DNA of 38,802 nt from Clostridiaceae bacterium (GTDB lineage Bacteria; Bacillota; Clostridia; Saccharofermentanales; UBA5734): assembly GCA_012520975.1 (NCBI GenBank), contig JAAYNF010000062.1, forward strand, positions 1-38,802. Reading direction: 5' to 3'. The notes under the pieces were generated by a model that saw only the letters and a list, made by a program, of their open reading frames with translations, was not told the DNA's origin and searched no databases. The translations under genes were made by a program, and so were the position numbers. Shown here one piece after another: positions 23,726-38,802 of the stretch. Position 1 is the first letter of the stretch, and every line of letters starts with the position of its first letter.

Positions 23726-23738
23726 CTTGTCAGACAAG
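23726..23738. repeat. Short perfect palindrome across the rhaB stop codon
   Basis: CTTGTCAGACAAG is a 6-bp inverted repeat with a single central base. It includes the rhaB stop codon. It has no T-tail and no clear role. Confidence 0.3.
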
Positions 23739-25211
23739 ATCCGGAAAGAGTTGGCGATAGCGGATCAAAGCCGCCTCCCAGAGCTCAGTATCTTCCGGTT
23801 GGTAGTGCTGCAGATCGGTGGATGCGGCGATGATCTGCCGGGCATCCCGGAGCGATGCAATGGCGCCGGAGGCGATCAGCTGAACCGCAATATTACCCAG
23901 CGCCGTTCCCTCGGCCGGGCCGGCGATAACCTTGATGCCGGTGGCATTGGCGGTAAACTGAGAAAGAAGATCGTCTTTGGTGCCGCCGCCGACAACATGA
24001 ATGACCGGATAGCAACAACCGCTTATTTTTTCGATCTGCTCCGCAACCACCCGATACTTAAGGGCAAGACTTTCGTAGATGCAACGGACAATTTCGCCGC
24101 GGCTCCCGGGAACGACCTGACCGGTCCGGCGACAGATTTCCCGGATGCGTTCGGGAATATCGCCGGGAGCTGCCAAAGCAGGATCATCGGGATCGATCAA
24201 GCTGACAAAAGGCCTGCTGGCCAGCGCCTCCTGCTCCATTTCGGCAAAAGTCACATGTTCGCCCCGACGCAGCCACTGCCGGCGCGATTCCTGAATCAGC
24301 CAAAGACCTGTGATGTTTTTCAGGACTCGTGTCGAATTGTTGAATCCACCCTCATTGGTGAAATTAAACCGAAAGGCCGGATCGTTGATGATCGGCTTTT
24401 TTCGCTCAATTCCCATCAAAGACCAGGTACCGCTGCTCAGATATATAAAGTCGGCATCGGCGGCCGGAACGGCAACCACGGCCGAAGCTGTGTCATGGGC
24501 GGCGACCGTGATGACCGGGATGGGATCGATATGAAGTTCGCGACAGATATCCGGTGACAAAACACCGGCCTTGGTTCCGGAATCAACCAATCGGCAGAGC
24601 AACCGGCCGGGCAACCTCAATCGACGCAGCAACTCCAAATCCCATTCGTTGTCGGAAGAGCGAAGCAGCTGCCCTGTTGAGGCCATAGTTCTTTCCGCCT
24701 GCATCACACCGGTCAGGAAAAAAACAAAAAGATCCGGCATCAGGAGCAGGCGATCGGCCAATTGAACCAATTCCGGTTGTCGGTTTTGCAGGGCTTGCAG
24801 CTGAAAAATCGTGTTGAAGGGCTGGAACTGGATGCCGGTCCGCGCATACAGCTCTTTCTGGGGTATCACCTTGAAGATCTGGTCCATCACACCCTCTGTG
24901 CGCCGGTCGCGATAATGAACCGGATTTTGCAGCAATTGTCCCTGCTTGTCCAGCAAGGCAAAATCGACCCCCCAGGTATCGATTCCCAAACTGTCGATCG
25001 GCCCCTTGGCTTTGGCCTTGATCAGGCCCTGCTTGATCTCATGAAACAAACGGAGTACATCCCAGTACAGTGTGCCGCCAATTCTAACCGGATCATTGGG
25101 GAATCGATGAATTTCCTCCAGTTCGATCCGCACACCGTCAAAGCGGCCGAGCATGGCACGTCCGCTTGAAGCACCAAAATCAAAGGCCAGAACTTGCCGG
25201 TTAGCGCTCAT
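23730..25211 (-). CDS. rhaB: Rhamnulokinase
   Basis: RhaB is the FGGY-family kinase that phosphorylates L-rhamnulose at C1. The 493-residue product has the N-terminal AFDFGASSGRAMLGRFDG, LYWDVLRLFHEIKQGL, GIDTWGVDFALLDKQG and VHYRDRRTEGVMDQ, a pattern specific to rhamnulokinases among FGGY kinases, and the C-terminal HVVGGGTKDDLLSQFTANA. The start at 25211 follows AGGAGGTGG by 5 bases; an in-frame start at 25268 lies inside the aldolase gene. It is the last gene of the long array that begins at 36655, 16 bases after the aldolase. Confidence 0.95.
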   Translation of the reverse strand: MSANRQVLAFDFGASSGRAMLGRFDGVRIELEEIHRFPNDPVRIGGTLYWDVLRLFHEIKQGLIKAKAKGPIDSLGIDTWGVDFALLDKQGQLLQNPVHYRDRRTEGVMDQIFKVIPQKELYARTGIQFQPFNTIFQLQALQNRQPELVQLADRLLLMPDLFVFFLTGVMQAERTMASTGQLLRSSDNEWDLELLRRLRLPGRLLCRLVDSGTKAGVLSPDICRELHIDPIPVITVAAHDTASAVVAVPAADADFIYLSSGTWSLMGIERKKPIINDPAFRFNFTNEGGFNNSTRVLKNITGLWLIQESRRQWLRRGEHVTFAEMEQEALASRPFVSLIDPDDPALAAPGDIPERIREICRRTGQVVPGSRGEIVRCIYESLALKYRVVAEQIEKISGCCYPVIHVVGGGTKDDLLSQFTANATGIKVIAGPAEGTALGNIAVQLIASGAIASLRDARQIIAASTDLQHYQPEDTELWEAALIRYRQLFPDLV

Positions 25212-25227
25212 GGAATCCACCTCCTGA

Positions 25228-26352
25228 TTACTGTTCTTGAGCCGCGATGCTTTTTCTGAATTTCTCACTTTCCCAGCTGTTGATAAAGTCCTTGCCGGCC
25301 TCGTCCATAACGCTGACCGTCCGGCCGGTCCGGCGGATCGTATCGGTTATAAACAGGACGGCGCAAAGGGTTTCCTCGATGGTTCTGGCTTCGGTCTCGG
25401 AGCATTGATAATAAACCTCGCCGCTGGCACGAAAAACCGTGCACTTAGCGGTCGGCAGCCCGCCCGAAGCCAGGTGATCGGCCAAATCACCGGTTGATTG
25501 TTCAACCATTTGACCGTTCAAAAAAACCGTTTGATCCGGATAAATCGCCCTGGTTGTGAAGGTCTTCAGCTCCCACGGTTGGGTCAAAAGCCTTTGCCGG
25601 AGCCACGGCGTCGCCGAAACCCAGCCGGCCTGATCCTGACCTGCGGCCAGCATGATCTGCGGCCAGTCCTGCGCACCGACACCAAAGGCCGCGGCAATTC
25701 TTTGGTTGACCTGGTCATGAAGCCGGAGACAGGTGTCGGCATCCGGTCCGGTCACAATCAATCCGTGATTTTGCATGAAAATAATGGACGGCGGCTTATG
25801 ATTGTCTGCTGTGGCCCGGCGGCAGGCAGCATTAATGGCAAACGCCAGCTGCACGCCGGGATTGATATAGGGAACAAAGACATAGTCCGCATCCAGACCT
25901 TCCAGTGCTCTGCGCGCGATTTCGGCCCCTTCGTTGCTGCAGGTTGCCAGATTGGCATAAACCGGATGGGTGTGGAGAACATACGTATCCAGCAACGAAT
26001 GGAACCCGGCTTCGACGGACGGTCGCAGGGACGGCAGGCCGCCAATGACCTGGATTGCGGCTTTGGCCATGTCGGAACCGATTTTCTCCACATCGGCAAA
26101 AGCGGCCGGGTCGTTTCCGTAATAAAAATCCCGCAGCATCGCATAATCCAGAACAGCATAAGCCTGATCCGGCGCGATCTGCTCCAAGCGATATCCGGAG
26201 GCTTTGATGGCCATCAACCGGTCGTCAAGCTTGACCGACGTATTGCCGCCACCCCCTTGCACATAATCCGAGCGGGCTCCGGCGATTCCGGACATGCGCA
26301 CGTATTCGTTCAGTTTTTCTTGATTTCGGTCGACAAATAAGGGATTGGCCAT
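25228..26352 (-). CDS. Class II aldolase, probable L-rhamnulose-1-phosphate aldolase
   Basis: Class II aldolases of the RhaD/FucA/RhaEW group use a zinc ion to cleave ketose-1-phosphates to DHAP and an aldehyde. The 374-residue product has DYVQGGGGNTSVKLDDRLMA near the N-terminus, the zinc ligands in VLHTHPVYANL (HTH) and a third His in FMQNHGLIVTG. It is about 100 residues longer than E. coli RhaD and resembles the aldolase half of the fused RhaEW proteins, where the other half is an SDR. Its position between rhaA and rhaB supports action on L-rhamnulose-1-phosphate; a different 6-deoxyketose phosphate is possible. The ribosome binding site AGAGGTGA overlaps the rhaA stop. Confidence 0.8.
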   Translation of the reverse strand: MANPLFVDRNQEKLNEYVRMSGIAGARSDYVQGGGGNTSVKLDDRLMAIKASGYRLEQIAPDQAYAVLDYAMLRDFYYGNDPAAFADVEKIGSDMAKAAIQVIGGLPSLRPSVEAGFHSLLDTYVLHTHPVYANLATCSNEGAEIARRALEGLDADYVFVPYINPGVQLAFAINAACRRATADNHKPPSIIFMQNHGLIVTGPDADTCLRLHDQVNQRIAAAFGVGAQDWPQIMLAAGQDQAGWVSATPWLRQRLLTQPWELKTFTTRAIYPDQTVFLNGQMVEQSTGDLADHLASGGLPTAKCTVFRASGEVYYQCSETEARTIEETLCAVLFITDTIRRTGRTVSVMDEAGKDFINSWESEKFRKSIAAQEQ

Positions 26353-26355
26353 GGT

Positions 26356-27639
26356 TCACCTCTTAGACAAGACATCCTTTTCGTATTGGGCAATCGGAGC
26401 CAGATAATCGCTGCCTGCCGGAACACCTTCATTGAGACAGTACTGGTTCCAGACCGCAGCATAAGGCAGGGTGCGCGCCTCGTCCATCAGAGCCAGACGA
26501 TCGGCGAAACGTCCTTGCTGTTCGGCCTCACGAATTCGTTCGGTGGGTTCAAGCAAAGCCGCCAGAATGGCTTTTTGTGTAGCACGGACGCCGATCACCC
26601 AAGCGGCGATCCGATTGATGCTGCCATCAAAAAAGTCGGTGGCCAGATAAACACGATCAAAGGCCGCCGCGCGCTTGATTTCGCGCATGACATCCTGCAG
26701 ATTCTCGTCGGATATCACCACGTGGTCGCTGTCCCATTTGACCGCCCGGCTGACATGGATAAGAAGATGAGAGTTAAACAGCAGCAAAGAGGAAATTTTG
26801 TCGGCAATGGTTTCGGTCGGATGAAAATGTCCCATGTCCAATGTCAGCATCAGGCTGTCGTTACCATCGGCACGGGCATGCGCCAAATAACCCATGTAAA
26901 ATTCGTGGGAACCAACGGTGAAGCTTTCCAATCCGATGCCGAACAATTTGCATTCCACGGCGTCGACCACCAATTCAGCCGGATACCTCACGGCAAAAAT
27001 TTCATCCAAGGAATCGCGAAGCAAACGGCGGTAAAGGGTGCGATCCGCCGGCATATCCTTCATGCCGTCCGGAACCCAGATGTTATTGACCACGGTCTGA
27101 CCCAGTTCACCGGCTATGTCGGCGGCGATTCTGCGGCTGGCCTTGCAGTGGTCGATCCAGAAACGGCGTATTCTTTCATCCGGATGGGCCAGCGTCAGGT
27201 TGTCGGCGGCCATCGGATGGCCAAAACATGTGGGGTTGAAGTCCAGCGCGATCCCGCGGGCTTTCGCCCAATCGATCCATCGACGGAAATGACGTGTTTC
27301 GTAACGGTCCCGATCGACGTTCTCGCTGAATCGTTCCGCATAGCTGGCATGCAGATTCAGGCGCTGTTTACCGGGCAACAACTTCATCGCTTGGTCAATG
27401 TCGGCACGGAGTTCCTCCCCATTGCGAGCCTTGCCGGGATGGTTTCCGGTTGACATGATACCGCCCGACGCTCCGCCCCCCTGCTCTTCCAGGCCCGTGA
27501 CGTCATCTCCCTGCCAGCAATTCATGGAAATCGGGATTTTTTTCATTTGCTCCAGCACGGCTTCTGTATCGATGCCATAGGCAGCGTAGGTTTCGGCGGC
27601 GGCCGCATAGGCTTGGCGAATGGTATCAGGTTTAAGCAT
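26356..27639 (-). CDS. rhaA: L-rhamnose isomerase
   Basis: RhaA converts L-rhamnose to L-rhamnulose with manganese or zinc. The 427-residue product matches the family throughout: ISMNCWQGDDVTGLEE, GGIMSTGNHPGKARNGEELR, KQRLNLHASYAE, LDFNPTCFGHPMA and the DSDHVVISDENLQDVMRE block that carries metal ligands. The start at 27639 follows AAAGGAGGAGG; a longer in-frame reading to 27693 would extend into the PHP gene without a better site. The start overlaps the end of the PHP gene by 8 bases. Confidence 0.96.
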   Translation of the reverse strand: MLKPDTIRQAYAAAAETYAAYGIDTEAVLEQMKKIPISMNCWQGDDVTGLEEQGGGASGGIMSTGNHPGKARNGEELRADIDQAMKLLPGKQRLNLHASYAERFSENVDRDRYETRHFRRWIDWAKARGIALDFNPTCFGHPMAADNLTLAHPDERIRRFWIDHCKASRRIAADIAGELGQTVVNNIWVPDGMKDMPADRTLYRRLLRDSLDEIFAVRYPAELVVDAVECKLFGIGLESFTVGSHEFYMGYLAHARADGNDSLMLTLDMGHFHPTETIADKISSLLLFNSHLLIHVSRAVKWDSDHVVISDENLQDVMREIKRAAAFDRVYLATDFFDGSINRIAAWVIGVRATQKAILAALLEPTERIREAEQQGRFADRLALMDEARTLPYAAVWNQYCLNEGVPAGSDYLAPIAQYEKDVLSKR

Positions 27640-28972
27640 CGGGATTTCCTCCTCCTTTGGTCTTATCGTGCCGAACCGGATCATGGTTTCCAAAAATTTC
27701 CCGCGCGGCGTCGCGATAATATCGGATGCGGTGGTTCAAATCAGGCTGCCTGCGTTGGGTTTTCGCAGAAAACATGCCGTTGTCCAAGGACTTGCCGGCC
27801 AACTGCTCATGACCGATCAACGCCCAAGCCGCGTCATACAGGTTGGCAAAAAGCGGATCACGCATGGCTTGGCAAACAAAGGGCTGACGCGGCTGGTTGA
27901 TATCTTCGCCGCTGATCTGGAAAAACGCATGACGTTCACAGTTTTCCCGCAATCTGATCAGCTGTTCGCGGGTATTGCGGGATGGCATATAGGTCACAGC
28001 GGCAAACCCGATTTCCCGCAGCACGTCAAACAGTTCATCCAGATAGCGGTCCTCAAAGGTTTGGGCTTTCTTGTCCCCGGTTACCGAGGCCGTGACATCC
28101 CCCAGATAAGCATAAGCCAAAATGATGCCGTTTCCCCGGGCAAAATCCGCTACTTCAGCGATCGGCAGACATTCCTCCGTGGCCTCCAAATAAAATTTTT
28201 CGACCAAATGACGCTTCAGCACCCCCAGCAGGTCAAAGGCTCGAAAAGGATTATGGCCATCGATTAATCGCTCTTCATCTTGGTCGGAAACCGGAACAGC
28301 AAGTTTGTGCCGGAGCAGAACCGGCAGATCCGACTTATCATCACAACGGGCATCCAGTTTGAGGGCCAACGCGTAGAGCAGGTGTCGCTCGGTGATGGCC
28401 CCGCCGTTTTCCCATTCAGACAAGGGAATCACGTCTCCCTCGTAATCGATCGCCATGTTCAAGGGTGACAACAGGCCATTTAATCTTTCAACCATCAGCC
28501 GGTTGCGACGGTCTCTGGCTCTTCGGACCGGTTGAAAAAATGCCGTCAGGGCATCGATCCGGGAATGGGGAACACCATGCAGCGCAACGTAGGCCACACC
28601 GTCCTGATCCGGATTGTTGATCCGCCGGCCGGCCAGCTGCGTGTCGGCAAAAGAGGCCCGGCACTCGGCACCGATCGTGGTCGGCAGGCCGAGAACGGCT
28701 CCGGCCTCGATAAATTCCCTGGCGCCGCTGATGGAGTCATGGTCCATGATGCCGGCGGTGACCAGGCCGGCCCGGTCGGCCATCCACACGGCTTTGGTCG
28801 GTGAATAGGGTGAAAAGGAATACGTCGTATGAATATGATTGTTGACATCGCGCCCGCGAACCGACACCGGCAGATCGCCGGCATCCCGCAGGCTTTTTAA
28901 TCGGCGCAGAGCCGCCAAGCGCTGCTCCGCGCCGGATGCATTAAGCTGATCTATCAGGTTCTGTTCAGGCAT
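27632..28972 (-). CDS. PHP-domain metal-dependent phosphoesterase-like protein
   Basis: PHP-domain proteins use a cluster of metal ions to hydrolyse phosphate esters. The 446-residue product has the first PHP motif HIHTTYSFSPYSPT (HxH at about 46-48), the second motif GIMDHDS (about 75-80), IGAECRAS, and an ISGEDINQPRQPF segment near the C-terminus. Its specific substrate is unknown. It overlaps the rhaA start by 8 bases and follows the E1 gene by 36 bases, so it belongs to the catabolic operon. Possible roles are dephosphorylation of a sugar phosphate intermediate or of a toxic by-product. The ATG has AAAGGATCC upstream. Confidence 0.75.
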   Translation of the reverse strand: MPEQNLIDQLNASGAEQRLAALRRLKSLRDAGDLPVSVRGRDVNNHIHTTYSFSPYSPTKAVWMADRAGLVTAGIMDHDSISGAREFIEAGAVLGLPTTIGAECRASFADTQLAGRRINNPDQDGVAYVALHGVPHSRIDALTAFFQPVRRARDRRNRLMVERLNGLLSPLNMAIDYEGDVIPLSEWENGGAITERHLLYALALKLDARCDDKSDLPVLLRHKLAVPVSDQDEERLIDGHNPFRAFDLLGVLKRHLVEKFYLEATEECLPIAEVADFARGNGIILAYAYLGDVTASVTGDKKAQTFEDRYLDELFDVLREIGFAAVTYMPSRNTREQLIRLRENCERHAFFQISGEDINQPRQPFVCQAMRDPLFANLYDAAWALIGHEQLAGKSLDNGMFSAKTQRRQPDLNHRIRYYRDAAREIFGNHDPVRHDKTKGGGNPDA

Positions 28973-29008
28973 AGTCGTGGATCCTTTCGGGTCTGCGACC
29001 GGATGTCA

Positions 29009-31486
29009 TCAGACGCCTTGGCGATTGCGGCGAAGGATCTCGACATCGGTAAAGCTTTTCCGGGCGACATATCCGGGAATGGGCCGGATCCGCTCATGGA
29101 AAATGTCAATAAACCAATCCGGCTGCGGGAAGAAATGCTCTTCCAGTTCATAGGCCGGCGTAATCCAGTTGCGCGAACCAAGAACCACCGCCGGCGCGTC
29201 AAGATAATCAAAACACAGGTCGCCAATGGTGCGGGCCAGTTCACTGAGATACGAACCACGCTCACAGGCATCGCCGGCGATAATGATCCGGCCGGTCTTT
29301 TTGACCGATTCGATGACCAAATCATAATTAAAGGGTACCATGGAACGGGCATCGATGATCTCGGCGCTGATGCCATATTTTTCCTGAAGGATCTTTGCCG
29401 CATCCAGCGCCCGGTAAAGGGTCGCGCCGATGGTCAGGATGGTCAGATCCGATCCGGCTCGTTTGATGTCGGGTTCACCGATCGGGATTTCATAACTTTC
29501 AACCGGTACGCCTCCTGTCCGGAATTGTTCTCCAACATCGTACAGCCGCTGGCTTTCAAAGAAAATAACCGGATCCGTACCATTAAGCGCGCTGGCCATC
29601 AAGCCTTTGGCGTCATACGGTGTCGCCGGAAAAACAACCTTGAGACCCGGGATATGCGAAACCAAAGAAGTCCAGTCTTGGGAATGCTGCGCGCCGTATT
29701 TTGAACCTACCGAGACACGAACAACCACAGGCATCTTGAGAATACCGGCGGACATCGCCTGCCATTTGGGCAGCTGGTTGAAGACCTCGTCACCCGCCCG
29801 GCCGAGAAAATCACAATACATCAGCTCCACCAATGCGCGTCCTCCGCACATGGCGTAGCCGACCGCCGAACCGACGATGGCGCCCTCCGATATTGGCGAG
29901 TTGAAAAGCCGATGATAGGGTACCGCCTCGGTCAAACCACGATAAACAGCAAAGGCACCGCCCCAATCTCGATTTTCTTCACCGTAGGCTACCAGAGTAG
30001 GATCCTCATAAAATTTATCCAAAATGGCCTCAAACAGCGCGTCACGCAGTTGGAAAACTCTGTTTTTGGAAATCGGGTCGCCCTTCTCATCGTAGGCAAA
30101 GCGGCTCTTTCTGGCGATTTGCTGGACGCGGGGATTTTCTTCCCTCGGCTGCAGCATATCAACCGGACGATCTTCCATCCGAACGATCCGTTGGTTGGAC
30201 AGCATGATTTTTTCAATGGCATCCGGCTGCTTGTTGAGGTCCATACGCGGCGACACAACAGGATCGATGGCCAGGCGCACCGCATCGGTAACGGTACGAA
30301 TGACGGCTTCGTCCGCGGCTTCGAAATCAACTTCGTCAAGCAGGCCGGCAGACAGCAGCTGCAAACGGAAATTGGCGATCGAATCGGCCTGCTGCCAGAG
30401 TTCTTTTTCCTCATTGGTTCGATACGAATCGGCATCCGAGGGAGAATGTCCGGAGTGACGGTAGGTCACGACGTCCAGCAGAACAGGGCCGCGTTTTTCG
30501 GCAAGAATTTTCAATTTTCTGGACATTGCGTCGATGACCGCCAGCGGATTATAGCCGTCGATGCGTTCGGCGTGCATTTGTTCCGGATTGACACCGGCGC
30601 CGATCCGAGCCACAAAATCATACCCCATGGTTTCGCCGCGGGTCTGGCCGCCCATGGCGTACTGGTTATTCATAATATTAAAGATCAGGGGCAATCCGCC
30701 CTTCATGTCGTCATCCCACAGGGTGCGGAACTGATCCATTGCCGACAGCATCATGCCTTCCCAGACCGGGCCGCAACCCAGCGAACCATCGCCGATGTTG
30801 CAGATCACGACGCCGGGTTTGCGATTGATTTTCTTATAGAGCGCCGCACCCACCGAGATGTCACCGGAACCGCCCACGATGGCATTGTTGGGATAAATGC
30901 CGAACGGCAGGAAAAAAGCGTGCATGGACCCTCCCAAGCCTTTATGAAAGCCGGTCTCTTTGGCGAATATTTCCGCCAAAACACCGTAGACCAAAAACTC
31001 GACCGCCAGCTGCCGAACCGACAGGTCGCGGCCTTGGTTGGCTTTTTCCACCACTTTGTAGGCGGCGCCATCGAGGAAGTTTTCCATCACGGCCAGCAGA
31101 TCCTCTTCCTTCATCTGATGTATGGCCGAAAGGCCTTTGGCAAGAATTTCGCCATGACTCCGATGTGAGCCGAAGATATAGTCGTCGGGCGTCAACAGAT
31201 ACGCCTGACCGACCGCGGCGGCCTCCTGTCCGAGGGAAAGATGAGCCGGGCCGGGATTGTTGTATTCCAACCCGTTGTACGTATTGGTTGTTTTGATTGA
31301 ATAAAGCATGGTTTCAAACTCACGGATCAAACGCATATAGCGATAAATCCGAAGGAAATCTTCTTTGCTGTATCGGTCTTTTTCGTCCTCAACCGATTTT
31401 TGGTATTGATTGACCGGAATATCCTGAAATTTGATCCAGCCCGGCTGCCGGACATCCTCCGGACTGACAAGCAAGTGTTTGGTCAT
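29009..31486 (-). CDS. Fused alpha-beta E1 component of a 2-oxoacid/acetoin-type dehydrogenase
   Basis: This thiamine-diphosphate enzyme would transfer an acyl group to the lipoyl E2. The 825-residue product fuses the normally separate subunits. The alpha half has GPAHLSLGQEAAAVG (79-93), GSHRSHGEILAKG, KGLGGSMHAF and the ThDP motif GDGSLGCG...MNN (232-274). The beta half (about 480-825) has SPISEGAIVGSAVGYAM, AQHSQDWTSLVSHIPGL and PATPYDAKGLMASAL, closest in style to acetoin and branched-chain oxoacid dehydrogenases. About 45 extra residues (about 123-172) interrupt the alpha half between HGEILAKG and TGFHKGLGG. The ribosome binding site AGGAGG is strong. E2 and E3 are immediately upstream. 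The substrate is not known; a pyruvate or acetoin role is possible. Confidence 0.85.
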   Translation of the reverse strand: MTKHLLVSPEDVRQPGWIKFQDIPVNQYQKSVEDEKDRYSKEDFLRIYRYMRLIREFETMLYSIKTTNTYNGLEYNNPGPAHLSLGQEAAAVGQAYLLTPDDYIFGSHRSHGEILAKGLSAIHQMKEEDLLAVMENFLDGAAYKVVEKANQGRDLSVRQLAVEFLVYGVLAEIFAKETGFHKGLGGSMHAFFLPFGIYPNNAIVGGSGDISVGAALYKKINRKPGVVICNIGDGSLGCGPVWEGMMLSAMDQFRTLWDDDMKGGLPLIFNIMNNQYAMGGQTRGETMGYDFVARIGAGVNPEQMHAERIDGYNPLAVIDAMSRKLKILAEKRGPVLLDVVTYRHSGHSPSDADSYRTNEEKELWQQADSIANFRLQLLSAGLLDEVDFEAADEAVIRTVTDAVRLAIDPVVSPRMDLNKQPDAIEKIMLSNQRIVRMEDRPVDMLQPREENPRVQQIARKSRFAYDEKGDPISKNRVFQLRDALFEAILDKFYEDPTLVAYGEENRDWGGAFAVYRGLTEAVPYHRLFNSPISEGAIVGSAVGYAMCGGRALVELMYCDFLGRAGDEVFNQLPKWQAMSAGILKMPVVVRVSVGSKYGAQHSQDWTSLVSHIPGLKVVFPATPYDAKGLMASALNGTDPVIFFESQRLYDVGEQFRTGGVPVESYEIPIGEPDIKRAGSDLTILTIGATLYRALDAAKILQEKYGISAEIIDARSMVPFNYDLVIESVKKTGRIIIAGDACERGSYLSELARTIGDLCFDYLDAPAVVLGSRNWITPAYELEEHFFPQPDWFIDIFHERIRPIPGYVARKSFTDVEILRRNRQGV

Positions 31487-31500
31487 GGTTTTTATCCTCC

Positions 31501-32862
31501 TCAGACTTGAAAAACGGCTTCGCGGATGATTTCAGCGACGGTGGGATGAGGGAAAATCAATTCCTTGATGTCGGCGATCCGCATCTGCGTTTCGATCAGA
31601 ATGCCGGCGGACATGATGATTTCGGAAGCATAGCTGCCAATGACATGACAGCCAAGCAGATATTCCCGATCGGAATCGATCAAAAGCTTGATCCGGCCCT
31701 GACCTCGATCGTTCTCGGCCAGATAACGGCCGCTGTAGTTCATGGGCAGCGTCACCTTCTTGTATTTGATGCCCTTGTCTTGGCAGGTCTGCTCGGTTTC
31801 GCCGACAAAAGCCATTTCCGGATTTGTATAAATAACAGACGGCATGGCTTGGTAGCGCATGAAATCTTTCTTGCCCAAAATAGTGTTAACCGCCACCTCG
31901 GCTTCGCGATATGCCGCATGGGCCAGCATCCAGACACCGTTGACATCGCCGACCGCAAACACTCCGGAAACATTGGTTCTGCCCTGAGCATCCGTGACAA
32001 TTCGTCCGCCTTCAACCAGCACTCCGAGATTTTCCAACCCGAAACCACGGACTACCGGCCGACGGCCGACGCTAAGCAGGGTGTAATCGGCGTCCACGGA
32101 TTTGGTTTCACCCGAATCGGTAAATTCAACCGAGCCGGGTTTGATATTGGTCACCTGACAATTCAAGTGAAACTCGATGCCTTTCCTCTCGTAGTCTTTT
32201 TGTAAAAGATCCGCCATTTCACGGTCGGCCGCACCGGCGATATGATCCAGCATCTCGACAACCGTGACTTGAGAGCCACAGGTCCGGAAATAGCCGGCCA
32301 TTTCCAATCCGATGACGCCGCCGCCGATGACAACCAAATGTTCCGGAATAACTTGAAGATCCAAGATCTCTCGGTTGGTCAGCACGCTTTTGCTTTCCAA
32401 GCCTTCTTTCACACCGTCAATGGGAGGGATCACCGCTTCGGATCCGGTCGCGATAATCAGGTGCCGGCTTGTGAAAACCTCCTCGCCGCATTGCACTCGG
32501 ATCTGGCGGTTTTCACGACCCAGAATGATACCGGTACCGTTCTTGACCGTGACCTTGCTGCTTTTCAACGTTTGACCGACACCGGCAACCAAGGTTCGGA
32601 CCACTTTGTTTTTCCGGGCCACGACCGCAGCCTGATCCAGACGGGGATTTTCGGTAAATACGCCGAAAACCTCGCCTCGCGCGGCATGATCAAAAACCTT
32701 GGCGCTGTGCAGGAATGTCTTCGAGGGAATGCACCCTTCGTTCAGACAAACACCGCCCAGTTTGTTTTTTTCGATCAGCAGCACCGACAAGCCGGCGCTT
32801 CCTGCCCGGTCAGCGGCCAGATAACCTCCGGGTCCTCCGCCAAGTACAATCAGATCAAACAT
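31501..32862 (-). CDS. lpdA: Dihydrolipoyl dehydrogenase (E3)
   Basis: E3 reoxidises the dihydrolipoyl group of E2 with FAD and passes electrons to NAD. The 453-residue product has the FAD motif GGGPGGYLAA (8-17), the redox-active disulfide GVCLNEGCIPSK (Cys39 and Cys44), the NAD motif VVIGGGVIGLEMAGYF, the second FAD motif GVFAVGDVNG and the C-terminal active-site FPHPTVAEIIRE. Length is normal. The start overlaps the end of E2 by 8 bases with GGAGGG 7 bases upstream. It lies between E2 and E1 in the same operon. Confidence 0.95.
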   Translation of the reverse strand: MFDLIVLGGGPGGYLAADRAGSAGLSVLLIEKNKLGGVCLNEGCIPSKTFLHSAKVFDHAARGEVFGVFTENPRLDQAAVVARKNKVVRTLVAGVGQTLKSSKVTVKNGTGIILGRENRQIRVQCGEEVFTSRHLIIATGSEAVIPPIDGVKEGLESKSVLTNREILDLQVIPEHLVVIGGGVIGLEMAGYFRTCGSQVTVVEMLDHIAGAADREMADLLQKDYERKGIEFHLNCQVTNIKPGSVEFTDSGETKSVDADYTLLSVGRRPVVRGFGLENLGVLVEGGRIVTDAQGRTNVSGVFAVGDVNGVWMLAHAAYREAEVAVNTILGKKDFMRYQAMPSVIYTNPEMAFVGETEQTCQDKGIKYKKVTLPMNYSGRYLAENDRGQGRIKLLIDSDREYLLGCHVIGSYASEIIMSAGILIETQMRIADIKELIFPHPTVAEIIREAVFQV

Positions 32863-34237
32863 GGGTAAGCCCTCCCTGCATCAGTAAAACAGGAAAATTT
32901 TCCAGAGTACGAACCAGATCCTGCAACAAGCGTGAAGCCGGCGCGCCATCAATGGCCCGATGATCGTAGGTAAGCGAAAGGGTCATCGCCGGATAGCTCT
33001 GCAGCCGGCCATCCTTTTCCCGGACGCGGGTAGTGACGGTATTGACGCCGAGAATGCAGGTTTGAGGGGGATTAATAATCGGAGTGAACGATTCAATCCC
33101 AAAAGATCCCAGATTGCTAACCGTAAATGTACCGCCCTTGAGCTTGTCCGGATTGATGGTTCCGGTCCGGCATTCTTCGGCCAGCGCCTTGACCTGCGCG
33201 GAAAGCTGGCTTAAAGATAGCTGATCGGCATAGAACACCGTCGGCACCATCAGGCCCCGGGGCGTGTCCACGGCTACGCCGAGATGGACATGCCGGAAAT
33301 AGGTCATCTTCTCATCATCATAATGGGCATTGCTGGCCGGATGACAGAGAAGCACCCGAGAAACGGCATAAAAGATAAGGTCCCCAATGGTCGGCACATT
33401 GTCCACCAGAGGATATCCCTGCCCGGTCAGTCCATCGGCGGCGGCGGCCTTGAGTTGGCGACGCAAATCCAAGATGGCCGTGGCGTCGAAACTCATATGG
33501 TTTGTCAGTTGCGCCATACTGGACAAAGAGTAATGCATCTGACGGGCAATGACCTTGCGGATGGTGCTGTGTTTTTCGGTCCAGGTTTCCGATTCATGCA
33601 GTTGGATCGCAACGGGACCCTCAACGCCGCCGACAATTGCCGCAGCCGCCCCCGCCGAAGCAACATCTTCAACACGGACGCGTCCGCCAAGGCCGGTTCC
33701 GGTCAAGCCCGACGGATAGGTTCCGACCGCACCGGTGGCCATCCTGCCCTGCTCCATCAACTGTCGTACATCCCGTTCGATGATTCGTCCTGCAGGACCG
33801 GTGCCGTCGGCCCGGCGTAAATCGACGTTGTGCTGCTCGGCCAAGTGACGGGCCCGGGGACTGATTCCTTGCTTGTCCGAATCCGTCGATTGAACCGGAA
33901 TCGACACGGGGATCGTGGTTTTTTCCGGCAAAACCTGAGATTTTTCACTTTCCTGATCCTTGGAAGCAGAATCGGGATGATAGACCGAGACATCCTCTCC
34001 CGGCTGACCGATAACACAAACATTGGTCAGACAGGGCACATCATCGCCCTCTTCAAAAAAGACCGCCAGCAATATGCCTGCAACGGTGGCGGCCTCATCA
34101 AAAATTGCCTTATCGGTCTCGTAGGTAAAAAGCAGATCTCCGACCGCAACGGAGTCGCCTTGCTTCTTGTGCCACTTGCCAATGATACAGCTCTCAACAG
34201 ATTGACCTTGGCGCGGCATGATGACAGGTGTTGCCAT
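32855..34237 (-). CDS. Dihydrolipoamide acyltransferase (E2)
   Basis: E2 is the core of the dehydrogenase complex: its lipoyl arm carries the acyl group from E1 to CoA. The 460-residue product has one lipoyl domain (1-80) with the lipoylated lysine in YETDKAIF (Lys43), a Ser/Pro/Gln-rich linker, a peripheral-subunit-binding domain (about 122-162, ISPRARHLAEQHNVDLRRAD), a second glycine/alanine-rich linker, and the catalytic domain with DHRAIDG (His426). The acyl specificity (acetyl or other) cannot be read. AGGAGGAATTAAT precedes the ATG. The SDR gene ends 27 bases upstream. Confidence 0.92.
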   Translation of the reverse strand: MATPVIMPRQGQSVESCIIGKWHKKQGDSVAVGDLLFTYETDKAIFDEAATVAGILLAVFFEEGDDVPCLTNVCVIGQPGEDVSVYHPDSASKDQESEKSQVLPEKTTIPVSIPVQSTDSDKQGISPRARHLAEQHNVDLRRADGTGPAGRIIERDVRQLMEQGRMATGAVGTYPSGLTGTGLGGRVRVEDVASAGAAAAIVGGVEGPVAIQLHESETWTEKHSTIRKVIARQMHYSLSSMAQLTNHMSFDATAILDLRRQLKAAAADGLTGQGYPLVDNVPTIGDLIFYAVSRVLLCHPASNAHYDDEKMTYFRHVHLGVAVDTPRGLMVPTVFYADQLSLSQLSAQVKALAEECRTGTINPDKLKGGTFTVSNLGSFGIESFTPIINPPQTCILGVNTVTTRVREKDGRLQSYPAMTLSLTYDHRAIDGAPASRLLQDLVRTLENFPVLLMQGGLTHV

Positions 34238-34264
34238 ATTAATTCCTCCTGTTATATAACCATA

Positions 34265-35383
34265 CTACTTTAGCATATTTTGGCCGCCGGTTACGGGTAT
34301 GGCCTGGCCGGTTTCATATTGTTGTTCGACACAGTACAGGATCGCCCGGGTCACATCAACCGGAGAACAGCCGCGGCGCATAGGTACTTTGTCGACGTAA
34401 AAATCATAAACTTCCTGAATGCTTGTGGCGCCCGGCACCTTGCCGGTGTTGAGGTACTGAACGAAAAGTCCTTTCTCCGGGTCGCTCCAAAGCGGCCCTT
34501 CGTAATAATTCCCCGGACAGATCGCATTGACCTTGATTCGATGTTCGACCAGCTCTTTGGCAAAGCTTTGCACCAGACCGATGCCGCCAAATTTTCCTCC
34601 CGCGTAAGCGAAATTCCTGTTTGAGCCCTCCAGCCCGGACTTGGAATTGATCTGAACAATATCGCCGGTGTAGTTCGGGTCAAAACGAGCCTGGATCTTC
34701 ATCGACCGGGAACCGTATTTGGCAACCAGGAAAAAAGCCGTATAGTTGATGCGGGTCACAAACTCAAAGGTCTCAAGGGTCATCTCTTCAAGGCCTCCCG
34801 CGCGCAAGACACCGGCGTTGCTGACCAAAAGATCAAGGCCGCCGAACATCCGGACGATCTGCTCAAACATGGAGCGCACCGATTCTTCATCGCCCACATC
34901 GACGCCGATCGCAACCGCTGTCCCTTGGCCATAATCCTTGTTCAAAAATCCGGCAACCTCTTGCGCCAAAGGAAAATTGAGATCGGCGATGACAATGGTT
35001 CCTCCGGCTGCGGCCAGCTCACGGGCGATTCCTTCGCCAAAGCCCTGCGCGCCGCCGGTAACCAGGCAAACCCTGCCTGCCAAGCGACCGCCCTTCTTTT
35101 TCACAGGATTTGACAGATAAAAATCTCCCAGGCCCTGTATGCGGATCGTGGCAATCGATTGACCGATCCTTCCGGCCGGTTGTTCCAGGCGATGGTAAAC
35201 CTCCTCCAGGTCGGCACAGGATTTCGTATCCACGATCAGGTCGGCGGCCTTTTGGCTTTCGGGCTCATAGCGAACATGGCAGAATCGGCCACCCACTAAA
35301 AGACCACGTAAAGCCGGGGCGATGGCGGCGATCGCCGCCTTTTCCCCGCCTGACTTTTCAATCCAATTCGCCATATGCGTCAT
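34265..35383 (-). CDS. SDR, sorbitol-6-phosphate 2-dehydrogenase-like
   Basis: This short-chain dehydrogenase resembles SrlD/SorD, which oxidise hexitol 6-phosphates to 2-ketose 6-phosphates. The 372-residue product has a Rossmann motif VTGGAQGFGEGIA (108-120), SNAG (188-191), Ser in QINSKSG and the YAGGK catalytic pair (Tyr260, Lys264). The C-terminus, VDKVPMRRGCSPVDV then TGQAIPVTGGQNML, closely follows the SrlD pattern YIDKVPLKRGC...TGQSINVTGGQ as I remember it. An extra N-terminal region of about 100 residues, rich in Ala and Gly, has no obvious homology to me. An alternative role, by analogy with the SDR half of RhaEW, is L-lactaldehyde dehydrogenase. It lies 6 bases after the alcohol dehydrogenase gene. 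Confidence 0.8.
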   Translation of the reverse strand: MTHMANWIEKSGGEKAAIAAIAPALRGLLVGGRFCHVRYEPESQKAADLIVDTKSCADLEEVYHRLEQPAGRIGQSIATIRIQGLGDFYLSNPVKKKGGRLAGRVCLVTGGAQGFGEGIARELAAAGGTIVIADLNFPLAQEVAGFLNKDYGQGTAVAIGVDVGDEESVRSMFEQIVRMFGGLDLLVSNAGVLRAGGLEEMTLETFEFVTRINYTAFFLVAKYGSRSMKIQARFDPNYTGDIVQINSKSGLEGSNRNFAYAGGKFGGIGLVQSFAKELVEHRIKVNAICPGNYYEGPLWSDPEKGLFVQYLNTGKVPGATSIQEVYDFYVDKVPMRRGCSPVDVTRAILYCVEQQYETGQAIPVTGGQNMLK

Positions 35384-35389
35384 CCGTCC

Positions 35390-36655
35390 TCATATCGGTT
35401 TGGCATGGGCCAGCAAATAGTCTTCGGCGGCCTTGCACCAAAGTCCGTTATTGGCCTCGACCAGGTCCGCCAGCTTTCGGAAAATCTCATCGGTCTCGCC
35501 CAGAGTCCGGAAATCGTTGATGGCGGTCAGCGGCAGGCTGATTTGGGTGTAGACCAGCTTTTTGCCGCCGGGTATTTTCGGCAAATTCAGCGTGGTGTCG
35601 ACGACGCTGTCCAGACCGCCGATATGGGTGACCATCGCCGAAGGATCCAGTTTGCCTCTTGCCATCAAGTCCAGGGACTCGATCAGATCACCGGTCGTGC
35701 CGCCACTGTTGCCGGCCAGGTGCGTCGCATTATAGTGAACATTGTAAAAATTAAACCGTGCGGTGAACGCCGGATCGGTGGGACCGGCGAAAAAGTTGAG
35801 ACAGCCGTCGTAGCCCAGGATCCGGTCGGCCTGCTCAATAACCGCGGCAACCGGAGCATAGACAAAAACGTCATCGTATCCTTCGCCGCCGGCGATGGCC
35901 CGAAGATGCGCCGGGACATCTTTGATGTCGGCGGTATTGACGTAGACCAGCTTCACCCCGCAGCGTTCGGCCTCTTCCACGGTATAAATCGTTTCGGCCC
36001 GGGCTAGGCGAGAAGCATCGATGTCGGTGACCACCAACAGTCCCGGCTGGCGCGGGCCATGCAGGGCGTAGTCAATGGCGCCGAGACCCATGGGGCCGAC
36101 TCCTGCCAGCAACGCCATTTTCCCACCTTCGACGATCCCCATCAGATGCTCATAGCTGCCCGGACGCGTGTGGTAATTGACGTTAAATCCGCCGACAATA
36201 CAGGAGACCGGTTCGCCCAGTGAGCCAAAATAGTATGCATCCCCGTCGTAGGGCAGCAGGCAGCCGAGCTCCATCACAATGGACGGAATGACGATATGTG
36301 TCGCCGCTCCGCCGATATAAGGAAAAGAGTACCCCGGTGCGGCATAAACATTAGAAGGATCATTAAGGGCCGGTTGAATGACAAATCGATCGCCCGGCTT
36401 GAATTGATCCGCCCAGCGGCTGCCAACTTCAAGAATTTCTCCGCAGAACTCGTGGCCGATGATGACCGGATTGGTAGCGATATCTTCCGGAACCCGTTTG
36501 TGTTCATTCCCCTGAATTGCTGCTTTGTAACTGGACATACAAATACTGTCCGAAACGATTTTCGCTAGGATTTCATCCGAGCCGATCGCCGGCAGCTCGA
36601 AAGTATCAAGCCGTAAATCGCACTTGTCGTAGAGCCTGACCGCCTTGGTTTTCAT
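35390..36655 (-). CDS. Medium-chain alcohol dehydrogenase, L-sorbose-1-phosphate reductase-like
   Basis: This is a zinc-type medium-chain dehydrogenase resembling SorE, which reduces L-sorbose-1-phosphate to glucitol-6-phosphate. The 421-residue product has a putative zinc-site Cys in SICMSSYKAAIQG, the GHEFCGEILEVG motif, a cofactor-binding loop LLAGVGPMGLGAIDYAL, and GGEGYDDVFVYAP. The four-cysteine structural zinc lobe of classical alcohol dehydrogenases is not seen. It is longer than usual (about 350) and its substrate is not certain. It is the first gene of the array; AAGGAGGTAACC precedes the ATG, and a promoter with operator-like repeats lies upstream. Confidence 0.78.
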   Translation of the reverse strand: MKTKAVRLYDKCDLRLDTFELPAIGSDEILAKIVSDSICMSSYKAAIQGNEHKRVPEDIATNPVIIGHEFCGEILEVGSRWADQFKPGDRFVIQPALNDPSNVYAAPGYSFPYIGGAATHIVIPSIVMELGCLLPYDGDAYYFGSLGEPVSCIVGGFNVNYHTRPGSYEHLMGIVEGGKMALLAGVGPMGLGAIDYALHGPRQPGLLVVTDIDASRLARAETIYTVEEAERCGVKLVYVNTADIKDVPAHLRAIAGGEGYDDVFVYAPVAAVIEQADRILGYDGCLNFFAGPTDPAFTARFNFYNVHYNATHLAGNSGGTTGDLIESLDLMARGKLDPSAMVTHIGGLDSVVDTTLNLPKIPGGKKLVYTQISLPLTAINDFRTLGETDEIFRKLADLVEANNGLWCKAAEDYLLAHAKPI

Positions 36656-36724
36656 CGTAGGGTTACCTCCTTATAAAAAACGTCTTAACATGAACTAAGC
36701 AAAGACAAAAAGTACTACGCCCTA

Positions 36725-36753
36725 AGTATAGCATAGTTTTTGTTATTTTTTAA
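36725..36753 (-). promoter_or_regulatory. Promoter of the catabolic array
   Basis: The minus strand has TATACT (plus AGTATA, 36725-36730) preceded by TGC (extended -10) and TTAAAA 17 bases upstream (36748-36753). The predicted start is near 36718, about 60 bases ahead of the alcohol dehydrogenase. The operator repeats at 36741-36767 cover the -35 and spacer, as expected for repression. Confidence 0.55.
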
Positions 36754-36767
36754 CACAAATTTGTTAA
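36741..36767. repeat. Operator-like overlapping inverted repeats
   Basis: TGTTA-N5-TAACA (36741-36755) overlaps TTAACA-N6-TGTTAA (36750-36767). Both overlap the -35 element and spacer of the minus-strand promoter. They are candidate binding sites for the adjacent DeoR-type regulator. Confidence 0.6.
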
Positions 36768-36792
36768 TTATTTTCATTAAATATTCGCTAAT

Positions 36793-36807
36793 TGTTAATA
36801 ATTAACA
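36793..36807. repeat. Operator-like perfect palindrome TGTTAAT-N-ATTAACA
   Basis: TGTTAATAATTAACA is a perfect 7-bp inverted repeat with one central base, made of the same half-site as the flanking repeats. It lies upstream of the minus-strand promoter and could allow looping or cooperative binding by the DeoR-type regulator. Confidence 0.6.
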
Positions 36808-36831
36808 CAGACTTCTCAAGCCGACAAAACC

Positions 36832-36851
36832 CGTAAACACTTGATTTTACG
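36832..36851. repeat. Distinct palindrome CGTAAA-N8-TTTACG
   Basis: The arms CGTAAA (36832-36837) and TTTACG (36846-36851) are perfectly complementary with an 8-base spacer. The sequence differs from the TTAACA repeats, so it may bind another regulator, for example one for carbon control. It does not match the standard cre consensus well. Confidence 0.35.
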
Positions 36852-36891
36852 CAGTTTCCTCTGTTTTTGCAAAAAATAAAGCGAATAAAGG

Positions 36892-36920
36892 TTGTTATTT
36901 AACATCAATTATGTTAAAAT
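36892..36920 (+). promoter_or_regulatory. deoR-lplA promoter with embedded operator
   Basis: TTGTTA (36892-36897), 17 bases, TAAAAT (36915-36920). The 21-base palindrome TTTAACAT-N5-ATGTTAAA (36898-36918) fills the spacer and runs into the -10, so a bound repressor would block the polymerase. A further half-site TTAACA lies at 36933-36938. This predicts autoregulation of the DeoR-type regulator. Confidence 0.65.
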
Positions 36921-36967
36921 TTAATCCAGCAATTAACATGAAAAAATAAAATATCCGGAGGCCAATC

Positions 36968-37726
36968 ATGCCCAGCCAACGTCGTGATGCCATCAACCAA
37001 TATATTCAATCCAAAGGCGAAGTGCGTCTTGCCGAGCTTGAAGTGCAATATCCCTACGTCTCCAGTATGACCTTGCGTCGCGATCTCGAGCATCTGGAAC
37101 GAATGGGCCGGATCATCCGCATTCGCGGCGGCGCAAAATCACTGGCTCACCTTTCCATGCTCAAAGAAGCCGCCTACACGCAACGGCAAGCCGAAAACAC
37201 ACAAGGCAAACTGGCCATCGCCGACAAAGCCGTTCAGCTGGTCGCCCCGGGCCGTTCCATCTACATTGATTCGGGAACCACCTGCATGTGCTTTGCGCAA
37301 CGGTTGCAAGATCAAAATCTTTTTGTTCTGACGCCGGCGCCCAACATTGCGCTGGAATTGGTCAGAAATCCCGGCATCAGGATTAATCTGACGGGAGGCC
37401 AGCTTAATCGTGAAACCTTGACACTGTCCGGCTTTAACGCCGTTGACTATGTCAAATCCCTTAATATCGATCAAGCCTTCATGGCGGCCAGTGCTTTTTC
37501 TGCCGGTGGCGGCTTTTCCTGCGGTGATTACTACGAAGCCGAGCTCAAGCGCCTGATCATCCGCAAAGCGCAGCAGGTTTTTCTTCTGATGGATCACAGC
37601 AAGATTAATTTCAGCATGCCCTACACTTTTGCCCGACTGCAAAACATCCACACCTTGGTCGTCGACCGGCCGCTACCGGAAGATCTGCTCAAGGAAGCCC
37701 GGCGGGCCCGGGTACGCGTGGTGTGA
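36968..37726 (+). CDS. DeoR/GlpR-family transcriptional regulator
   Basis: DeoR-family regulators usually repress sugar catabolic genes and respond to a phosphorylated sugar. The 252-residue product has an N-terminal winged helix-turn-helix (about 5-57: LAELEVQYPYVSSMTLRRDL, LERMGRIIRIRGGAK) and a DeoRC sensor domain with YIDSGTTCMCFAQRL, NLTGGQLNRETLTLSG, YYEAELKRLIIRKAQ and LLMDHSKI. CGGAGG precedes the ATG. It is divergent from the rhamnose array and its promoter and that of the array share repeated half-sites, so it most likely controls both. The effector could be L-rhamnulose-1-phosphate or a deoxyhexitol phosphate; this is inference. Confidence 0.9.
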   Translation: MPSQRRDAINQYIQSKGEVRLAELEVQYPYVSSMTLRRDLEHLERMGRIIRIRGGAKSLAHLSMLKEAAYTQRQAENTQGKLAIADKAVQLVAPGRSIYIDSGTTCMCFAQRLQDQNLFVLTPAPNIALELVRNPGIRINLTGGQLNRETLTLSGFNAVDYVKSLNIDQAFMAASAFSAGGGFSCGDYYEAELKRLIIRKAQQVFLLMDHSKINFSMPYTFARLQNIHTLVVDRPLPEDLLKEARRARVRVV

Positions 37727-38802
37727 TGATGACGATTCCACAACCGGAACCGGACCATGATCTGCTTCTCGTGCGATCAAGGAGTTTTGATCCCTGGCAC
37801 AACCTGGCTCTGGAGGATCTCCTGCTCGACCGAATGAACGAATCGGTCAAGGAAAACCGGCGACTTTCGGGGATTTTGTACCTGTGGCAAAACCAGGACA
37901 CGGTGGTCATCGGACGCAATCAAAATGCCTGGGCCGAATGCAATACCGCATTGCTGGAAAGGGAAAACGGCCGGTTGGCCAGACGAACGACCGGCGGCGG
38001 CGCGGTCTTTCATGATCTTGGCAATCTGAATTTTTCCTTGATTTTTCCCCGTAAGAGGTTCAGTCTGACCGATAATTTTGATTTGATCGTCGATACCGTC
38101 GCCAGCCAGGGAATCGACGCCGATCGCTCCGGGCGAAATGACGTGCTGGCAAAGGGACGCAAGTTTTCGGGCAATGCTTTCACCCATCGAGGTCAAGCCG
38201 CCCTTCACCACGGAACATTGCTGATCCACTCTGACTACGGACGCGTGTCGCGCTACCTGACCGTAAACCCACAAAAACTCCAAGCCAAGGGCATTGCTTC
38301 GGTGCGTTCCAGAATCATTAATTTACAGGAACTGGCGCCCGGCGTCACGGTAGACAACCTGTCCGAAGCCATGGCCGAATTATTTTGCGAACGGTTCGGT
38401 GGCCATTTGCCCAAACCGGCCAAGATCGGACACTTGGATGTTCAGGCTTTCACGGAAACAGGGGAATTCGCCCGGCGTCGGGAGTTTTTTGCCTCCTGGG
38501 ACTGGCGATACGGGCGGACTTTTCGTTTCGATGCCACCCTTGCCGGAAGACTGGATTGGGGACTGGTTGATATCGGCCTGACCGTCCAAGACGGAAAGGT
38601 CCGCAAGGCCGTCATCTATTCCGACGCGCTGGACGGTGATTTTATCAACCGGATGGAACATAACATCACGGGCTGTCGTTTTCTTTCTCAGGAACTGGCA
38701 ACGGCTCTGCTTGACACGCCCGGCCAAAACCATGACTTTGGCCCTTCCCGCCGCCAAATGGCCCGTGACCTGGCTGATCTCTTTCTGGAACAGAATTGGT
38801 AG
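37726..38802 (+). CDS. lplA: Lipoate-protein ligase
   Basis: LplA activates free lipoate with ATP and attaches it to lysine in lipoyl domains such as that of the E2 at 32855-34237. The 358-residue product has LWQNQDTVVIGRNQN, the RRTTGGGAVFHDLGNLNFS motif, GRNDVLAKGRKFSGNAF with the catalytic-type lysine, HHGTLLIHSDYGRVSRYL, and a C-terminal accessory domain, so it resembles full-length bacterial LplA. The ATG overlaps the deoR stop (TGATG) with no strong ribosome binding site, implying coupling; a GTG at 37723 is the alternative. The stop codon is the last codon of the window. No lipoyl synthase or octanoyltransferase is seen, so the cluster may depend on scavenged lipoate. Confidence 0.93.
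   Translation: MMTIPQPEPDHDLLLVRSRSFDPWHNLALEDLLLDRMNESVKENRRLSGILYLWQNQDTVVIGRNQNAWAECNTALLERENGRLARRTTGGGAVFHDLGNLNFSLIFPRKRFSLTDNFDLIVDTVASQGIDADRSGRNDVLAKGRKFSGNAFTHRGQAALHHGTLLIHSDYGRVSRYLTVNPQKLQAKGIASVRSRIINLQELAPGVTVDNLSEAMAELFCERFGGHLPKPAKIGHLDVQAFTETGEFARRREFFASWDWRYGRTFRFDATLAGRLDWGLVDIGLTVQDGKVRKAVIYSDALDGDFINRMEHNITGCRFLSQELATALLDTPGQNHDFGPSRRQMARDLADLFLEQNW

Follow-up and report, generated by a model that had tools for sequence, protein, structure and literature searches.

A predicted multi-operator array of phased 15-bp inverted repeats beside a RhaR-like DeoR-family gene in Clostridia

The operator of Escherichia coli DeoR is a 16-bp palindrome, TGTTA-N6-TAACA, and E. coli GlpR, a DeoR-family repressor of glycerol-phosphate genes, acts at several promoter-proximal operators with half-sites of the TGTTC type. 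E. coli DeoR acts via several operators and loops DNA (PMC8053113). RhaR of Chloroflexus aurantiacus, a DeoR-family rhamnose repressor, has four tandem TCGAAA sites; its binding was shown by EMSA, and it is released by L-rhamnulose, not L-rhamnose (PMC3870299). Lambda CI at OR and OL binds pairs of neighbouring dimer operators cooperatively, their spacing being about two turns of DNA (PMC8053113). Here we analysed a 38,802-nucleotide stretch of DNA from a Clostridiaceae bacterium (contig JAAYNF010000062.1, assembly GCA_012520975.1; hereafter the window), in which TTAACA/TGTTAA half-sites are arrayed between a deoR gene and a divergent sugar operon. A literature search for published descriptions of this operator gave Chloroflexus-type RhaR work only. 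C. aurantiacus RhaR is the nearest published case, sharing with the window the role of a DeoR-family rhamnose-operon repressor (predicted for the window) and several repeated half-sites at a periodicity of roughly one turn; its operator consists of direct TCGAAA repeats with a 10-11 bp periodicity, whereas the window has TGTTM 15-bp inverted repeats at 21-22 bp steps. E. coli DeoR is similar in its family, in a TGTTA half-site set in an inverted repeat over promoters, in having several operators and, as may hold for the window, in multimeric action, but the deo operators are 16 bp long (N6) and hundreds of bp apart, whereas those of the window are 15 bp long (N5) and in close tandem. Relatives of the window locus carry TGTTC half-sites like those of GlpR, although the GlpR palindrome spacing is one bp longer than that of the window unit. 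Lambda CI, an unrelated protein, offers a mechanistic analogy only, in its operators about two turns apart.

Between the first start codon (ATG) of the catabolic operon, at 36655 on the minus strand, and that of deoR, at 36968, lies a gap of 312 bp with a GC content of 29%. On the basis of domain matches and homologues, deoR (36968..37726, plus strand) encodes a DeoR-family regulator of 252 aa, the proposed binder of the array, with HTH_DeoR (PF08220, 44.6 bits; cut-off 21) and DeoRC (PF00455, 151.7 bits; cut-off 31.8) domains above the Pfam cut-offs, and its 3' end is overlapped by a gene for a lipoate-protein ligase (37723..38802, plus strand). The gene adjoins and diverges from its predicted target, the minus-strand sugar operon (23730..36655) encoding ADH, SDR, E2, E3, E1, a PHP-domain protein, RhaA, a class II aldolase domain protein and RhaB. 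Since RhaA (637 bits) exceeds its NCBIfam cut-off of 572 and is accompanied by a RhaB-like kinase (TIGR02627, 515 bits, under the cut-off of 528), the predicted rhamnose role of this operon is well based. In the aldolase-like protein (25228-26352), the class II aldolase domain is restricted to the first ~215 residues, and the other ~160 residues have no Pfam match. The ADH-SDR-E2-E3-E1-PHP cluster recurs, whole or partial, across Clostridia beside this DeoR clade (window 23730-36655; loci L041-L066, L074, L102 and L114), the window version adding rhaA and rhaB, with lipoate ligase after deoR. Genomes of genus g2 have a second ADH copy, 61-63% identical (G019:C51:44009-45265, locus L150; G021:C188; G016:C140), which in G019 and G016 shares its contig with a DeoR paralogue. 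A literature search for rhamnose operons that include lipoyl complexes returned no title or abstract pointing to this cluster.

An earlier note on this DNA had counted at least nine half-sites in fewer than 200 bases, and nine TGTTA/TAACA pentamers do lie within 36741-36938, with every motif it claimed found in its place. Compared with 5000 dinucleotide-preserving shuffles of the AT-rich gap itself, the 312 bp hold 8 TTAACA/TGTTAA hexamers (mean expected 0.75), 10 TGTTA/TAACA pentamers (mean 1.6) and two TGTTA-N5-TAACA inverted repeats, each of these counts being reached by 0/5000 shuffles. No 6-mer is commoner in the gap than TGTTAA, and 8 of the 16 TTAACA matches across the 38.8-kb window fall there. 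Half-sites beyond the earlier list are a compact TGTTA-N2-TAACA (36893-36904) and an eighth hexamer, TTAACA (36685..36690, plus strand), which lies in the catabolic operon's 5' leader, ~30 bp before the first ATG, and for which conservation was not seen. Exact TGTTA-N5-TAACA occurs only twice in the organism's own 1.99-Mb genome, at 36741-36755 and 36793-36807, and eight relaxed matches elsewhere in it are all inside ORFs or a ribosomal-protein gap. No second target was found in this genome, where 22 matches with one mismatch were counted against 62 for a reversed-pattern control; in a count across relatives, relaxed matches were near background.

On the catabolic side, the 15-bp operator O1 (36741..36755; TGTTAAAAAATAACA on the minus strand) is a perfect TGTTA-N5-TAACA and covers the -35. 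It was recognized from the shuffles, the genome scan and a placement with respect to the -10 that 15 genomes share. At 21 bp from O1, O2 (36762..36776; TGAAAATAATTAACA on the minus strand) is an imperfect 15-bp operator with one good half-site, recognized from a conserved everted N6. O3 (36793..36807; TGTTAATAATTAACA, that is, TGTTAAT-N-ATTAACA), again perfect, is 31 bp beyond O2 and so 52 bp beyond O1, and its exact position was not conserved in the relatives compared. The O1-O2 and O2-O3 steps are near two and three helical turns. The variable gaps listed in the earlier note arose mostly because half-sites of neighbouring 15-bp units had been paired: TTAACA-N6-TGTTAA (36750-36767) is the O1/O2 junction, and within TTTAACAT-N5-ATGTTAAA (36898-36918) the N7 between pentamers at 36900-36916 is the junction of two deoR-side units.

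We compared twenty loci encoding the regulator, the window's included, the others being 57-77% identical and from related genomes; ADH orthologues were collected separately from the regulator loci. Four whole upstream regions were also put through a multiple alignment, which was left out because the tandem units were misaligned in it. All spacings were scanned in 17 promoters with a degenerate half-site, TGTKM, derived from these same 17. Inverted N5 was present in 14/17 promoters against 0.1 expected (maximum 2 in 100 shuffles), and other inverted spacings in 0 or 1. Everted N6 and N7, the spacings that 15-bp units stepping by 21 or 22 bp produce, occurred in 9/17 and 4/17 promoters, respectively; among the other everted spacings, N14 was found in 4, N13 in 3 and N0 and N5 in two each, the remainder being single matches. 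An exact-dyad scan with no assumed half-site placed TGTTA-N5-TAACA, the overlapping GTTAA-N3-TTAAC and everted TAACA-N6-TGTTA at the top, each in 5 promoters against a shuffle maximum of 3. In promoter orientation, the common 15-bp inverted repeat reads TGTTAACATTTAACA in G011, TGTTCACAATGAACA in G019, G021 and G010, TGTTAACAATGAACA in G022 and TGTTCAAAACTCACA in G038. As judged from this comparison, the array is made up of one unit, the 15-bp inverted repeat TGTKM-N5-KMACA, which recurs in tandem at intervals of 21-22 bp, or two helical turns, with the units on the same DNA face. The conservation that the earlier note had asked about in related genomes was therefore seen, whereas its irregular spacing was not borne out, both the unit and the step being fixed across genera. 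Sites further upstream do vary between genera, with half-sites at -12, -32 or -42 from O1.

A direct-repeat catabolic operator was rejected, since direct spacings were at or near chance except for N2 (8/17) and, more weakly, N8, N9 and N15; the N2 excess is probably a by-product of TGTTAACA-type units, in which two overlapping half-sites both match. The catabolic operator thus departs from the C. aurantiacus type, being built of inverted N5 and everted N6/N7 with a half-site other than TCGAAA, and also from the 16-bp E. coli operator, inverted N6 occurring in 0/17 promoters.

The catabolic promoter (36725..36753, minus strand) comprises a -35, TTAAAA (36753-36748), a 17-bp spacer and an extended -10, TGCTATACT, with the core TATACT (36730-36725). 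That a palindrome covers this -35 was confirmed, in that the consensus match holds and the promoter is backed by conservation. In a search permitting offsets of 20-29, O1 started 24-26 bp ahead of a TATAAT-like -10 in 15 genomes, and its bases 3-8 (TTAACA or TTCACA; TTAAAA in the window) lie about where the -35 belongs. The left half of O1 thus doubles as the -35 hexamer, about 17 bp ahead of an extended -10. The unit after O1 is TGTTATAATCTAACA in G004 and G011, where the -10 lies inside it, and near matches to this unit were found in G022, G018, G020, G015 and G005. Where deoR and ADH are co-directional (G007, G003 and G014), two units 21 bp apart are found upstream of deoR; the operator thus stays with the promoter, which is what a repressor would require. 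We rejected a terminator-like stem at 36737-36714, which shares bases with the -10 and, at one stem against 0.4 expected, is no clear departure from chance. In the distant homologues L048, L050 and L051, a palindrome contains the -10 box (TGTTATATAATAACA, TGTGATATAATCACA), which is another form of operator-promoter overlap. A palindrome resembling a catabolite-repression (cre) box, AAGCGTAAACGCTT, is placed just downstream of the catabolic -10 and before the first gene at loci L007, L008, L009 and L020, in genomes of genus g2.

On the deoR side, a candidate promoter (36892..36920, plus strand) is formed by TTGTTA (36892-36897), 17 bp and TAAAAT (36915-36920) with a TG extension, as a consensus match only. 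This promoter, whose spacer the earlier note had filled by a palindrome, is weaker than the catabolic one. The degenerate unit GGTTGTTATTTAACA (36890..36904) has a good right half, TAACA, and includes the 12-bp TGTTATTTAACA already noted at 36893-36904; 22 bp further, the degenerate unit TGTTAAAATTTAATC (36912..36926) lies over the deoR -10. A single TTAACA (36933..36938, plus strand) follows at about -34 from the deoR start, and L002, L003 and L004 have TAACA/TCACA in the same orientation at -32/-33. TTAACA/TGTTAA hexamers were found within 90 bp of deoR in 5/7 relatives (0.6 expected; reached by 0/3000 shuffles), no hexamer half-site was seen near deoR in several genus g2 genomes, and the deoR-side copies in some relatives are 10-bp direct repeats of TAACA/TCACA/TGTGA. 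Autoregulation of deoR is likely, in a form less fixed than catabolic repression. The part of the earlier interpretation that is supported is that the sites are conserved operators tied to the regulator, placed over the catabolic promoter and, with less regularity, over that of deoR.

We further scanned a held-out set of 76 homologues (33-50% identity) that lay outside the motif definition. Inverted N5 was found in 24/76 (0.2 expected) and everted N6 in 7/76 (0.3 expected), both counts ignoring kinship, and inverted N5 was present upstream of 0/10 DeoR paralogues (28-33% identity). Many held-out homologues adjoin ADH-SDR-E2-E3-E1-PHP genes; the motif occurred in 9/20 loci with the cluster detected within ~5 kb and in 17/58 without it, and thus belongs to the regulator clade, beyond the rhamnose operon alone. 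Eight homologues in which the cluster was not detected (L068, L077, L078, L088, L093, L097, L100 and L101) have a 15-bp palindrome directly before the regulator RBS, which suggests autoregulation.

The array is conserved and looks functional. We consider it highly probable that its several operators serve the neighbouring RhaR-like DeoR-family protein as a repressor site, with TGTKM-N5-KMACA as the unit, and DeoR dimers or tetramers bound in phase would repress cooperatively; multimeric binding by this protein, as the earlier note had supposed, is plausible. In the absence of rhamnose, DeoR dimers would occupy O1, O2 and O3 side by side, aided by dimer-dimer contacts within a tetramer, and the bound protein would exclude RNA polymerase from the catabolic promoter, while binding at the deoR-side half-sites would give weaker autorepression. 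The protein would be released once its DeoRC domain binds an intermediate of rhamnose breakdown, either L-rhamnulose or the phosphate of this sugar. L-rhamnulose-1-phosphate as the effector is an assumption, and an uncertain one because C. aurantiacus RhaR responds to L-rhamnulose (PMC3870299).

The cooperative part of this proposal has a competitor, which leaves the identity of the sites unaffected: each 15-bp unit may be bound independently by a DeoR dimer, the extra units being redundant or decaying and O1 alone repressing. Only O1 is indeed constant in position; from one genus to another, O2 and O3 differ or are decayed. We nevertheless regard independent binding as unlikely, since everted N6 and N7 are strongly enriched when other spacings are not, N6 recurs among the held-out homologues, and the helical phase so kept counts against independent sites, which would have no reason to keep it. 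More doubtful still is an additional DNA loop that would join O1-O3 to the deoR-side units, some 100 bp distant; E. coli DeoR forms loops across longer stretches. Both promoters carry operators and E. coli DeoR loops separated ones (PMC8053113), but on the deoR side the units are degenerate, some relatives lack them, and a single cluster suffices in co-directional operons. It is very improbable that the sites belong to Rex (TTGTTAA-N4-TTAACAA) or a Crp/Fnr protein. Although half-sites of the forms TGTTAA/TTAACA and TGTGA/TCACA are similar to Rex and Crp boxes, the pentamers are spaced by N5, unlike Rex or Crp spacing, and the motif tracks this DeoR clade, not its paralogues. No match to the Rex N-terminal family was found in the organism's own genome (96% complete, which keeps this absence short of absolute; controls matched in 7/14 known genomes), and no Rex-spaced site (TTGTKAA-N4-TTMACAA, up to 2 mismatches) in the gap, so that gene content and spacing exclude Rex. 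A chance build-up of TTAACA in AT-rich intergenic DNA, for which the low GC content of the gap might speak, is excluded by the shuffles and by conservation across genera, including relatives with visibly GC-rich flanks (G014 and G038), and its likelihood is negligible.

Returning to cooperative, in-phase repression, we tentatively put forward a wider reading, as a possibility rather than an expectation. A previously undescribed DeoR clade of mostly uncultured Clostridia may use a phased tandem operator whose half-sites serve as the -35 box and, for several of the genera, as the -10 box too, so that dimers stacked every two turns would replace RNA polymerase contact by contact, and it may do so at an undescribed, lipoyl-complex-linked rhamnose pathway. 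Seemingly irregular half-site arrays can conceal a regular unit that is revealed only by comparison. The clade is linked to an unusual rhamnose operon with a complete 2-oxoacid dehydrogenase complex and a lipoate ligase, and the predicted operator code, TGTKM-N5-KMACA at 21-22 bp steps, is testable and may allow regulon prediction for this DeoR clade of mostly uncultured Clostridia.
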